Part shown: piece by piece, positions 21,773-25,250 of the stretch
How the letters are laid out: the number at the start of each line of letters is the position of its first letter
Position numbering within the stretch: the stretch's first letter is position 1
Assembly (NCBI RefSeq): GCF_014138285.1
Contig: NZ_JACGXN010000001.1
Location: forward strand, 1,539,314-1,603,313
DNA: 64,000 nucleotides
Reading direction: 5' to 3'
Origin: Phyllobacterium myrsinacearum
GTDB taxonomy: Bacteria > Pseudomonadota > Alphaproteobacteria > Rhizobiales > Rhizobiaceae
The notes under the pieces: generated by a model
Told to the model about the DNA's origin: nothing
Databases searched by the model: none
Seen by the model: the letters and a program-made list of their open reading frames with translations, nothing else
Program-made: the position numbers and the translations under genes

Positions 21773-22807
21773 TCAGGCCGCAAGCTGCTTTGGCTGGATC
21801 AGCCCGCGTGCGACGAGAAGTTCAGCGATCTGAATGGTGTTGAGGGCCGCACCCTTGCGCAGGTTGTCCGAAACAATCCAAAGCGACAGACCGTTCTCGA
21901 CTGTGATGTCTTCGCGGATACGCGAGATATAGGTGGCATCTTCACCAGCAGCTTCGTAGGGCGTGATGTACCCGCCATCTTCATGCCGATCAATAACCAG
22001 ACAGCCAGGTGCATTGGAGAGAATCTCGCGGGCCTCTTCTGCGCTCATGGGGCTTTCAAACTCGATGTTGACAGCTTCCGAATGGCCAATGAAGACGGGT
22101 ACACGGACACATGTCGCTGTCAGCTTTATCTTGGGGTCGAGCATCTTCTTGGTCTCGGCGACCATCTTCCACTCTTCCTTGGTGTAGCCGTCTTCCATGA
22201 ACACGTCGATATGCGGGATGACGTTGAAGGCAATCCGCTTGGTGAACTTCTTGGCTTCCACCGGATCGGCAACGAACACCGCCCGTGACTGCTGGAACAA
22301 CTCATCCATGCCGTCCTTGCCAGCGCCGGAAACCGACTGGTAGGTAGCGATAACGAGACGCTTGATCTTCGCCTTGTCGTGCAGCGGCTTTAGGGCGACG
22401 ACGAGCTGCGCTGTGGAACAGTTCGGGTTGGCAATGATGTTCTTCTTGGTAAAACCGACAATTGCGTCCGGATTTACTTCCGGCACGATCAGAGGCACGT
22501 TTGAATCGTAGCGCCATGCAGAGGAATTATCGATGACGACGCAACCCTGCGCGCCGATCTTTGGCGACCATTCCTTCGAGACGTTGCCGCCCGCCGACAT
22601 CAGGCAGATATCGGTGTCGGAAAAGTCATAGGTCTCGAGGTTTTTGACCTTCAGCGTGCGGTCGCCAAACGACACTTCGGTTCCCTGTGACCGGCGCGAG
22701 GCAAGCGCCACAACTTCACTGACCGGAAAGCCGCGCTCTTCCAGTATTGTCAACATTTCGCGGCCCACATTGCCCGTGGCGCCTACAACCGCAACCTTGA
22801 AACTCAT
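21773..22807 (-). CDS. asd: Aspartate-semialdehyde dehydrogenase
   Basis: 344 residues from the ATG at 22807 (MSFKVAVVGATGNVGREM); AGGAG lies nine bases upstream. The frame is open upstream to 22984, but that part crosses the leader region. The N-terminal NADP site and the active-site Cys in NPNCSTAQLVVALKPL are visible, as is QSVSGAGKDGMDEL. It makes aspartate-4-semialdehyde, the branch point to lysine, threonine, methionine and isoleucine. dapF, further along in lysine synthesis, is at 61.9 kb. Probably controlled by the attenuator upstream. Confidence 0.97.
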   Translation of the reverse strand: MSFKVAVVGATGNVGREMLTILEERGFPVSEVVALASRRSQGTEVSFGDRTLKVKNLETYDFSDTDICLMSAGGNVSKEWSPKIGAQGCVVIDNSSAWRYDSNVPLIVPEVNPDAIVGFTKKNIIANPNCSTAQLVVALKPLHDKAKIKRLVIATYQSVSGAGKDGMDELFQQSRAVFVADPVEAKKFTKRIAFNVIPHIDVFMEDGYTKEEWKMVAETKKMLDPKIKLTATCVRVPVFIGHSEAVNIEFESPMSAEEAREILSNAPGCLVIDRHEDGGYITPYEAAGEDATYISRIREDITVENGLSLWIVSDNLRKGAALNTIQIAELLVARGLIQPKQLAA

Positions 22808-22840
22808 CTGTGCTATCTCCTGTCCCTCACCGCTCTTTGC

Positions 22841-22890
22841 AAAAAACCCGCTGGCCACTGCGGGTCTTTTCCCCCGGGCCGGACCCGGGA
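22841..22890 (-). promoter_or_regulatory. Transcription attenuator of asd: terminator and competing antiterminator
   Basis: On the minus strand, ACCCGC and GCGGGT (22860-22865 and 22846-22851) form a stem followed by six T (22846-22841): an intrinsic terminator 34 bases before asd. The segment read as CGGGTC (22887-22882) can instead pair with GACCCG (22866-22861), which overlaps the first terminator arm, so the two structures exclude each other. CGGGTC is also part of a CCCGGG hairpin. This is the usual layout of an attenuator. Confidence 0.65.
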
Positions 22891-22913
22891 GGGGGCGAGC
22901 AGGCCAAGGGAAA

Positions 22914-23033
22914 TCAGACCGTTTTGGTGGTCGTTTTGGCCGGCATTTTGGTGGAAAGAACAGACGCGCCTGCGCATCCGGCATGAATGCCGGAACCGCT
23001 CGTCAAAAAGTGTGCAGTTGATTCGCTGCTCAC
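22914..23033 (-). CDS. Putative leader peptide of asd attenuator
   Basis: 39 codons from a GTG at 23033. AAGGAG (minus strand, 23047-23042) gives an eight-base spacing. The peptide ends STKMPAKTTTKTV: within its last 13 codons are five Thr, three Lys and one Met, end products of the aspartate pathway. The stop is just before the paired segments. A shorter form from the ATG at 22946 lacks a ribosome site. Stalling at Lys or Thr codons would favour the antiterminator; inferred. Confidence 0.55.
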   Translation of the reverse strand: MSSESTAHFLTSGSGIHAGCAGASVLSTKMPAKTTTKTV

Positions 23034-23058
23034 GGGGGCGTCTCCTTAACCTGCCACG

Positions 23059-23086
23059 CTTGTAGCGGCTTTCCAAAAAGAGTCAA
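23059..23086 (-). promoter_or_regulatory. Promoter of asd leader transcript
   Basis: On the minus strand TTGACT (23086-23081), a 16-base spacer and TACAAG (23064-23059). The start would be near 23052, right before the leader ribosome site. The rest of the spacer up to 23366 has no gene and probably holds the transporter promoter. Confidence 0.5.
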
Positions 23087-23366
23087 TTGTCCATTCAAAA
23101 GAGAAGAATATGTCGCGTTACGCACAATTTTAAACTTTCGTCGTAAAAACCGGTCTTTGCTTTCTGAAATATTTGTTCAACACTTGGATGGTGCATGGGG
23201 TGCATGACCTTTGGGGGGAGTTCCGGAGGACATTCACCGGCGTATGGTCGGTTTGATTGCCTGGGCTTGGCGGACAGATCATACGCAGTGACAAAACTAA
23301 AGAGCGTGACCGGACCTTGGGGCGCGGACGCTCTGGCGTAGATGCTGTTTTCTGGGAGGAAATGAA

Positions 23367-25250
23367 ATGGCGACCACTTCTGTGGCTGGTGATGCCAGCC
23401 GGGGTATGACGCGGGAAGAGAAGAAAGTTATCTTCGCTTCTTCGCTCGGGACTGTTTTCGAATGGTACGACTTTTACTTGTACGGTGCATTGGCTGGTTT
23501 TATCGGCATAGCCTTCTTCGGTGAATATCCCGAGGCAACCCGCAATATCTTTGCGCTGCTGGCCTTCGCGGCAGGCTTTCTCGTCCGTCCGTTCGGAGCG
23601 CTGGTGTTTGGTCGTGTCGGCGATCTCGTCGGGCGCAAATATACGTTCCTTGTCACCATCCTGATCATGGGTCTGTCGACCTTCCTGGTCGGTATTCTTC
23701 CTGGCTCCGGTACTTGGGGCATCGCGGCACCGATCATCCTGATCGCCCTGCGCATGCTACAGGGACTGGCACTCGGCGGTGAATATGGCGGTGCGGCCAC
23801 TTATGTGGCGGAGCACGCACCAAAGAACCGGCGTGGTTATTACACGTCATGGATCCAGACAACGGCGACGCTCGGTCTGTTCCTATCACTGGTCGTGGTT
23901 CTTATTGTGCAAAACTGGCTCGGCAAGGAAGCTTTTGCTGCCTGGGGCTGGCGCATTCCCTTTATTCTATCATTCGTATTGCTCGGCATCTCCGTGTGGA
24001 TTCGTCTCTCCTTGAGTGAATCACCTGCCTTCAAGAAGATGAAGGAGGAGGGCAAGGGCTCCAAGGCGCCGCTGACGGAAGCATTTGGTCAGTGGAAGAA
24101 TGCCCGGGTTGCCCTGCTCGCCCTGTTCGGCCTCACCGCCGGTCAAGCCGTTGTCTGGTATTCCGGCCAGTTCTATGCGCTGTTCTTCCTGCAGAACGTG
24201 CTGAAAGTGGACGGCCAGACGGTCAATATCATGATCGCCATTGCGCTGCTGCTCGGTACCGGCTTCTTCGTCTTCTTCGGCTGGCTGTCAGACAAGATCG
24301 GCCGCAAGCCGATCATCATGGCCGGTCTTGCCTTGGCAATCCTTACCTACTTCCCGCTGTTCAAGGGTCTGACGCAGGCTGCCAATCCGGCACTGGCACA
24401 GGCTGAAGCAACGGTACGTGCAACGGTAACCGCAGCACCCGGCGATTGTACATTCCAGTTCAATCCGGTCGGTACAGCCAAGTTCACCAGCTCGTGCGAT
24501 ATTGCCACATCGTTCCTGTCGAAGAGCTCGGTACCATACGAAGTGGTCAGCGGTCCTGCCGGACAGCCAGCCACGATCAAGCTCGGTGATACGCTCATCC
24601 CATCCTACGACGCTGTTGCTGCCGGTCCGGATGCTGCAGCCAAGAATGCCGTGCTGACGCACGATCTCAACCTTGCCTTGCAGAAGGCCGGTTTCCCGCT
24701 GGTGCGGGCTGCTGCGAAGGTGCCGGATGTGAAACTGGATGGCTTCATCAAAGCCAATCCTGAGCTCAACCTTGATGCAACAGCTGTTCGTGCCGGTGAA
24801 AAGGCTGTCACGCCGGTTGCGGATCTCGTCAAGGCGAAGCTGATCACGGCAGAACAGGCAGCCGGTGCCACTGATATGGCGGTTTACACTGTGCCCAATG
24901 GCGGCTTGTTCAGCGTGGTTGCTGACCCTAAAGCCGTGAACTGGCCGATGACGATCGCGATCCTGTTCGTGCTCGTGATCTACGTGACGATGGTTTACGG
25001 TCCGATTGCTGCGATCTTGGTCGAGATGTTCCCGACCCGTATCCGCTATACCGGCATGTCGCTGCCCTATCATATCGGCAACGGCTGGTTCGGTGGCCTG
25101 GTTCCGGCTATCGTTTTCGCAATGAGTGCGGCCAAGGGCGATATTTACTATGGCCTGTGGTACCCCATCGTCATTGCAGCCATGACGCTGGTGATCGGCC
25201 TGATCTTCGTCCGCGAAACCAAGGGTGAAGATCTGAACGACATCAAGTAA
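23367..25250 (+). CDS. MHS-family MFS transporter with large insert
   Basis: 627 residues; GGAGGA precedes the ATG. The metabolite:H+ symporter signatures are present: FEWYDFYLYGALAG, GRVGDLVGRKYTFLV, RMLQGLALGGEYGGAATYVA and GWLSDKIGRKPIIM. Related ProP/KgtP/ShiA-type carriers have 430-550 residues; here about 190 extra residues (about 334-523) with two Cys, rich in Ala/Val, sit between membrane segments 8 and 9, before NWPMTIAILFVLV. The substrate may be an organic acid or osmolyte; not decidable. Confidence 0.9.
   Translation: MATTSVAGDASRGMTREEKKVIFASSLGTVFEWYDFYLYGALAGFIGIAFFGEYPEATRNIFALLAFAAGFLVRPFGALVFGRVGDLVGRKYTFLVTILIMGLSTFLVGILPGSGTWGIAAPIILIALRMLQGLALGGEYGGAATYVAEHAPKNRRGYYTSWIQTTATLGLFLSLVVVLIVQNWLGKEAFAAWGWRIPFILSFVLLGISVWIRLSLSESPAFKKMKEEGKGSKAPLTEAFGQWKNARVALLALFGLTAGQAVVWYSGQFYALFFLQNVLKVDGQTVNIMIAIALLLGTGFFVFFGWLSDKIGRKPIIMAGLALAILTYFPLFKGLTQAANPALAQAEATVRATVTAAPGDCTFQFNPVGTAKFTSSCDIATSFLSKSSVPYEVVSGPAGQPATIKLGDTLIPSYDAVAAGPDAAAKNAVLTHDLNLALQKAGFPLVRAAAKVPDVKLDGFIKANPELNLDATAVRAGEKAVTPVADLVKAKLITAEQAAGATDMAVYTVPNGGLFSVVADPKAVNWPMTIAILFVLVIYVTMVYGPIAAILVEMFPTRIRYTGMSLPYHIGNGWFGGLVPAIVFAMSAAKGDIYYGLWYPIVIAAMTLVIGLIFVRETKGEDLNDIK

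Follow-up and report, generated by a model that had tools for sequence, protein, structure and literature searches.

The window, a stretch of 64,000 nt from Phyllobacterium myrsinacearum (contig NZ_JACGXN010000001.1), carries on its minus strand a gene for a 344-aa protein which we take to be aspartate-semialdehyde dehydrogenase (Asd). This protein is 98% identical to its Phyllobacterium calauticae counterpart, and one full-length Asd match per genome was found in 20 of 20 Phyllobacterium genomes (source genome included). Next to it upstream lies a divergently oriented ORF (23367-25250) that resembles a transporter, presumably of the MFS family. The preliminary description, made from the sequence alone, had placed a complete attenuator before asd, and inspection of the sequence located each of its parts on the minus strand, from the promoter to the asd ribosome site. 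In the order of transcription, the features are:

23059-23086, minus strand: promoter TTGACT (23086-23081), 16 nt, TACAAG (23064-23059), from the sequence
23042-23047, minus strand: leader ribosome site (SD) AAGGAG, 8 nt 5' of the GTG, from the sequence
22914-23033, minus strand: leader ORF MSSESTAHFLTSGSGIHAGCAGASVLSTKMPAKTTTKTV, 39 codons, GTG start, C-terminus KMPAKTTTKTV
22917-22949, minus strand: putative regulatory Lys/Thr codons K M P A K T T T K T V, from codon comparison
22917-22932, minus strand: small hairpin within the Thr/Lys codons, GACC (22932-22929) with GGTC (22920-22917)
22902-22941, minus strand: possible A:B pairing without a ribosome, GGCCAA (22941-22936) with TTGGCC (22907-22902)
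22902-22920, minus strand: segment B GGTCTGATTTCCCTTGGCC, candidate antiterminator, partner of D and of the first terminator arm
22883-22893, minus strand: segment C, with CTCCCGGGT (22891-22883) as the 5' arm of the C:D hairpin
22893-22889, minus strand: CCCTC in segment C, complementary to the GAGGG before the asd ribosome site
22863-22880, minus strand: segment D GGCCCGGGGGAAAAGACC, common to B:D and C:D (C:D arm 22879-22871)
22841-22870, minus strand: intrinsic terminator AAAAGACCCGC-AGTGGCCA-GCGGGTTTTTT, then six T; lineage-limited
22824-22828, minus strand: segment E GAGGG, purine block directly 5' of the asd ribosome site, complementary to C
22817-22821, minus strand: asd ribosome site AGGAG, 9 nt, then ATG at 22807, from the sequence
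21773-22807, minus strand: asd, presumed aspartate-semialdehyde dehydrogenase, 344 aa

After the leader stop, the segments follow in the order B (TTTCCCTTGGCC here, GTCTCTGGCC in Rhizobium), C (pyrimidine-rich, ...CCCGGG here), D (GGCCCGGGG) and the purine block E near asd, and GGTCTGATTTCCC in the leader could pair with both the D arm and the first terminator arm. Read upstream, the asd frame also meets no stop codon across the attenuator as far as an ATG at 22984 (403 aa; 21773-22984, minus strand); this extension is probably due to chance, and the asd homology used here starts at 22807.

A Lys/Thr-rich ORF end precedes asd, at a distance of 84-168 nt, in all 100 close-relative loci compared, a set made up of 20 Phyllobacterium loci and the best 80 matches from a search of genome contigs (L021, a non-asd match, was left out, and L022-L024 come from genomes already represented by L004, L008 and L012). 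The best-scoring ORF end was taken at each locus and had 6-10 Lys and Thr residues among its last 12 codons, usually reading AKTTTKTV, with 0-4 for the runner-up. Among the 97 Rhizobiaceae leaders Lys occupies position -7 in 91 and -3 in 90, while Thr occupies -6 in 93, -5 in 95, -4 in 84 and -2 in 93; the Thr codons have their highest entropy in the third base, and the N-terminal part of the peptide is variable by eye. The leader ORF with Lys/Thr regulatory codons that had been proposed for this locus is thus present in 100 of 100 close loci, and Lys and Thr are kept while third codon positions vary.

Outside the family, a Lys/Thr leader was detected in 29 of 59 asd loci from other families of the order, using the rule of at least six Lys+Thr in the last 15 codons with at least one Lys and at least two Thr; six or more Lys+Thr in the last 15 codons arise by chance at a rate of 0.5% (dinucleotide shuffles), and the antisense strand gave 0 of 59. 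The leader peptides diverge between families (ITKTTTIKTTKTTTV, IAKTTTTTTL and TTKKTTTKTV are examples) and still keep Lys and Thr, which means that amino acid identity, and not sequence, has been kept. By the same rule 30 of the 59 sampled loci (L102-L161) are without such a leader, so the control has been lost, has moved or was never gained there. In the rest of the class a leader was seen in four of 60 asd loci (2/20 plus 2/40); these four cases outside the order (L166, L177, L211 and L216) hint at a deeper or repeated origin. Judged by these comparisons, the leader ORF before asd is real and conserved in many relatives, and its Lys/Thr codon run most likely senses how much of the two amino acids is available and sets asd accordingly.

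The choice of Lys codons in the leaders is strongly skewed. In the last 15 codons of the 97 Rhizobiaceae leaders AAA was counted 293 times and AAG 23 times (293 of 316 being AAA), as opposed to 82 AAA and 2188 AAG in asd of the same set, where AAG is about 27 times commoner; the 31 leaders outside Rhizobiaceae had 52 AAA and 20 AAG. The bias suggests selection either for one tRNA-Lys isoacceptor or for the RNA sequence, and RNA constraints could be its cause; that codon choice may matter through selective charging of isoacceptors is a theoretical argument (PMC1183508, in the part available).

In the source genome no ORF end with at least six Lys+Thr among its last 12 codons was found at eight loci of homoserine dehydrogenase, aspartokinase and the DHDPS family (seven places, two of the loci covering one gene, and four of six DHDPS matches included), and no second AARACNACNACNAARACN occurs in the assembly. 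An ORF end with four Met of 12 codons at L183 looks like chance.

The promoter TTGACT-N16-TACAAG is unchanged in 19 of 19 aligned Phyllobacterium leaders. TTGACT was also found in the written-out leaders of Brucella (L025), Mesorhizobium (L041), Rhizobium (L072) and Sinorhizobium (L100), and TTGACA in that of Agrobacterium (L065); a loose promoter rule was satisfied in 113 of 128 leaders, a raw count taken without a control. A script search recovered an SD-like sequence 5' of the leader ORF in many, though not all, relatives. The -35 region TTGACTCTTT (23077-23086) is longer than a plain -35 box and recurs in Brucella L025 and Mesorhizobium L041, and TTGACTC is common to the written-out Rhizobium and Sinorhizobium leaders. 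A generic consensus scan found no promoter, missing that of the leader because its rule requires a final T in the -10 box, and a generic terminator scan gave two matches, both elsewhere (1.3 expected), without listing the leader terminator; consensus scanning alone, therefore, lends the preliminary description no support.

The segments B, C and D following the stop are widely shared among relatives, and B:D and C:D are mutually exclusive because both use D. The fold of the whole leader was mildly better than that of its shuffles (z -2.0; 8 of 200 shuffles as good). With a ribosome placed 5 codons before the stop, on RNA ending before E, 40 nt 5' of asd, more than 40% of B paired beyond stop+26 in 115 of 128 leaders, and pairing of B exceeded that of shuffled B (0.67 vs 0.45, p 1e-8, 66 representatives, 28 of them individually at p<=0.05). 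On RNA ending soon after D, stalling gave B:D and a ribosome at the stop gave C:D in L001, L041, L072, L100 and L160, while a ribosome at codon -3 of L001 gave no B:D. In full-length folds C:D was part of the minimum-energy structure of L001, L041, L072 and L100 at every ribosome position. The dependence of the exclusive pairings on ribosome position is therefore an in silico result for truncated RNA, four of five full-length folds not switching, and an ON state could only arise kinetically. Forcing B:D cost 1.2 kcal/mol in L072 and 3.5 to 6.3 kcal/mol in L065, L100 and L041; it freed the asd site in L072 and L041, hardly did so in L065 and had the reverse effect in L100.

Strand permutation within 58 leaders of the Phyllobacterium/Mesorhizobium/Brucella type supported B:D (p 0.015) and C:E (p 0.027), with p 0.063 for the terminator stem, 0.57 for C:D and 0.81 for A:B; the Rhizobium-like group had too little variation for this within-clade procedure. 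The A:B pairing appeared in the consensus fold of the Rhizobium-like set; neither A:B (covariation p 1.0 and 0.81) nor C:D had a covariation excess in either set. The small hairpin within the Thr/Lys codons was paired in 224 of 232 cells, 14 of 58 sequences having C-G in place of G-C, evidence made weak by its strand-permutation p of 0.18. B fitted its own D better than exchanged partners (p 0.009), as opposed to p 0.59 for the control of B with E. The leader frame and the paired segments, on whose conservation the preliminary description had staked its reading, are both conserved. Automatic delimitation of the four segments B to E from the best hairpin mis-assigned many hairpins and was replaced by contiguous-helix tests; its run had given C:E in 15, B:D in 45 and B:E in 5 of 128 leaders at p<=0.05.

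The intrinsic terminator of this species has an 11-bp stem, AAAAGACCCGC with GCGGGTTTTTT, followed by six T. In Phyllobacterium the B:D helix extends into its first arm, GGTCT pairing with AGACC. With the A site at codon -7 this arm was paired with the leader (mean P>=0.45) in 17 of 19 Phyllobacterium leaders, the others being L016 (0.13) and L020 (0.22), while with the ribosome at the stop the pairing was 0 in 19 of 19. The segment that had been described as able to pair with the first terminator arm behaved accordingly in the folds for this genus, capturing the arm with the A site at codons -8 to -6 and leaving it free at the stop; an A site at codon -4 or -3 gave no capture (pairing about 0). 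RNAalifold of 62 leaders of the Phyllobacterium/Mesorhizobium/Brucella type placed B:D together with a terminator-type hairpin, and no C:E, from which it follows that B:D alone does not remove the hairpin and that capture of the arm needs the extra GGTCT/AGACC match.

Across relatives the terminator is patchy and thus falls outside the common core. By a rule asking for a perfect stem of 5 or more pairs, a loop of 3-10 and at least 5 T of 8, the leaders with a terminator-like site numbered 6 of 19 in Phyllobacterium, 21 of 43 in the other Rhizobiaceae, 1 of 35 in the Rhizobium-like group and 0 of 31 among the rest; relaxed to at least 4 T, the rule gave 16/19, 28/43, 6/35 and 3/31, respectively. 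The counts are raw, with no chance rate, and the Rhizobium-like group is defined by the bases after the stop. Of the terminator-based attenuator suggested earlier, the terminator itself holds for this genus, while its role as a conserved output does not.

What many relatives share instead is complementarity between C and the purine block 5' of the asd ribosome site. The C/E match spans 5 bp in this species and is longer in many relatives. RNAalifold of 34 Rhizobium-like leaders paired GCTCTCT of C with AGAGAGC just 5' of the asd start, in addition to C:D; there is no covariation in this C:E helix, as neither strand varies among the 33 of 33 leaders compared. Across families the match is kept despite changed letters: AUGCUCUCCCG/UGGGAGAGCAU in L142, CGCUCUUUCC/GGAAAGGGCG in L123 and UCUCUUCUGC/GCGGAAGAGA in L166. 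Each C fitted its own E better than exchanged partners (p 0.0004 for 40 representatives and 0.0008 for the 31 leaders outside Rhizobiaceae) and better than shuffled E (p 3e-6 for 66 representatives, 13 individually); the exchange and shuffle p values for C/E, like those for B/D, are optimistic because the representatives share ancestry.

Several folding tests go against control at the asd ribosome site. Partition-function pairing of E with C did not exceed that of shuffled E (0.26 vs 0.23, p 0.23, 7 of 66 individually), and in the full-length fold of L142 the C:E helix appeared both at the stop and at codon -3. The modelled energy for opening the asd site was higher with a stalled ribosome than at the stop, by a mean of 1.0 to 1.8 kcal/mol over 128 leaders, which in these models is the wrong sign for a simple translational switch; the comparison is biased toward that sign because the compared folds differ in length. 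A pseudoknot with B:D and C:E formed at the same time is also conceivable and would leave the asd site closed. Hiding of the asd site by alternative pairing is thus favored by co-variation and opposed by the sign of the opening energy, one consensus fold and the partition-function test; given this mixture, the translational branch is one that we infer.

Asd catalyses the shared step toward Lys, Thr and Met, and the Lys and Thr pathways branch after it. The leader has what marks the attenuator class, a short ORF with codons for end products of the pathway. We consider it likely that it is a ribosome-mediated attenuator of asd, with a terminator as the output here and the asd ribosome site as the output in relatives lacking a terminator. 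With ample Lys- and Thr-tRNA the ribosome would run to the leader stop and mask B, and D would pair with C; in this species the terminator would form and transcription stop, while in relatives that have no terminator the remainder of C would pair with E and hold down initiation at asd. When either Lys or Thr is scarce, the ribosome would stall on the Lys/Thr codons and leave B free, so that B:D would form once D is transcribed and C:D would be lost; in Phyllobacterium the terminator arm would be captured, in other relatives the C:E sequestor would be delayed, and in both cases asd would be expressed. That many relatives keep the leader and B, C and D without a terminator, with C fitting E, points to translation control, and in these relatives the output is probably at the ribosome site.

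A narrower explanation, possible if somewhat doubtful, is transcription attenuation by the intrinsic terminator alone, the C/E match being incidental. The strong stem with its run of T in this species, the stall-dependent capture in most Phyllobacterium leaders and the terminator-like sites of about half of the other Rhizobiaceae leaders agree with it; however, under the stricter rule only 6 of 19 Phyllobacterium leaders have such a site, the Rhizobium-like and more distant leaders keep the Lys/Thr run almost entirely without one, and C and E co-vary. Termination might otherwise depend on Rho, at a putative Rho site in the post-stop pyrimidine stretch masked or bared by ribosome position. Written-out leaders do have a pyrimidine-rich stretch after the stop, and many are without an intrinsic terminator, but the exclusive helices would be left unexplained and upstream stalling would bare the site rather than mask it, which is the wrong direction; we regard this as improbable.

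Action in trans of the peptide or of a short leader RNA, as for peTrpL/rnTrpL of Sinorhizobium meliloti (PMC10117765, as far as available), is also most unlikely in our estimate: a tagged fusion of the corresponding S. meliloti peptide, SEP5, is detectable (same source), but conservation is limited to the Lys/Thr end of the peptide, the position of the leader adjoining asd is fixed and the KTTTKT codon pattern occurs only once in the assembly. The leader could finally be a conserved but incidental upstream ORF; the Lys/Thr identity kept in diverged peptides, against the low chance expectation given above, makes this highly improbable.

The thrL leader of the enterobacterial thr operon senses Thr and Ile and controls thrABC. 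The asd leader resembles it in its Thr codons, its exclusive hairpins and its place in the aspartate family, and differs in that Lys and Thr codons precede asd and that many relatives have no terminator. The trpL/rnTrpL attenuator of S. meliloti is ribosome-mediated and belongs to the same order, but is a Trp leader whose RNA and peptide also act in trans (PMC10117765, available part). For uORFC-8-2 before cysS in Rhodobacterales, likewise an alphaproteobacterial leader with cognate codons, read-through on stalling has been proposed; it differs in having Cys codons, a tRNA-synthetase gene downstream and another order as host (PMC8632094, available part). The actinobacterial LEU element and translational T-boxes also act by pairing to the ribosome site without a terminator, in other genes, another phylum and with other structures, the Leu codons of the LEU element themselves pairing with the site (PMC1262725, available part). 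The asd RNA motif RF01732 of Lactobacillales is another RNA element named after asd, and the paper describing it lists among its references a work of 1987 whose title concerns attenuator-like sequences upstream of asd in Streptococcus mutans (PMC2864571, available part). No Rfam family matched positions 22000-24000 of the window at E<=1 or the asd loci of nine relatives at the gathering threshold, and on this ground a riboswitch or known RNA was set aside as the identity of the element.

According to the preliminary description, such control of asd is not known to have been described in Rhizobiales. This has to be amended for S. meliloti SEP5, whose translation was established by Ribo-seq and a tagged Western blot, which has six Thr and three Lys codons near its 3' end, lies in the 5'-UTR of an "aspartate dehydrogenase" gene and is presented as possibly a leader peptide, one "conserved only in Sinorhizobium" (PMC10117765, available part). 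In our reading the gene downstream of SEP5 is asd; the Sinorhizobium leaders L100 and L101 (KTTAKTTTKTV) fit its codon count. The available text of that paper differs from the present account in giving no RNA structure, terminator or order-wide conservation. It was the only publication on a Rhizobiales asd leader in the literature searched, with most subscription papers outside the scope; the available parts of PMC2965389, PMC1262725, PMC8632094, PMC2864571 and PMC1183508 have nothing on the subject, and the wider leader family, the switching RNA and the patchy terminator were not found in this literature. We class the asd leader as a variant of ribosome-mediated attenuation.

A further proposal, to which we give slightly less than even credence, is that in much of the order the element is a translational attenuator, mostly without a terminator, whose two-amino-acid, AAA-biased leader sets initiation at asd, and that the terminator of Phyllobacterium and some other Rhizobiaceae is a later addition. 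Within a single family, the output of the same sensor would then have shifted between translation and transcription; that the terminator was gained after the translational output is a guess.

The finding gives asd a control mechanism that is open to experiment, in a large group with root-nodule symbionts among its members, and widens one "Sinorhizobium-only" small protein to a set present in many families of the order. By this reading a single leader may sense two end products simultaneously, and the set of leaders offers a natural series on an attenuator moving between terminator and ribosome-site output.
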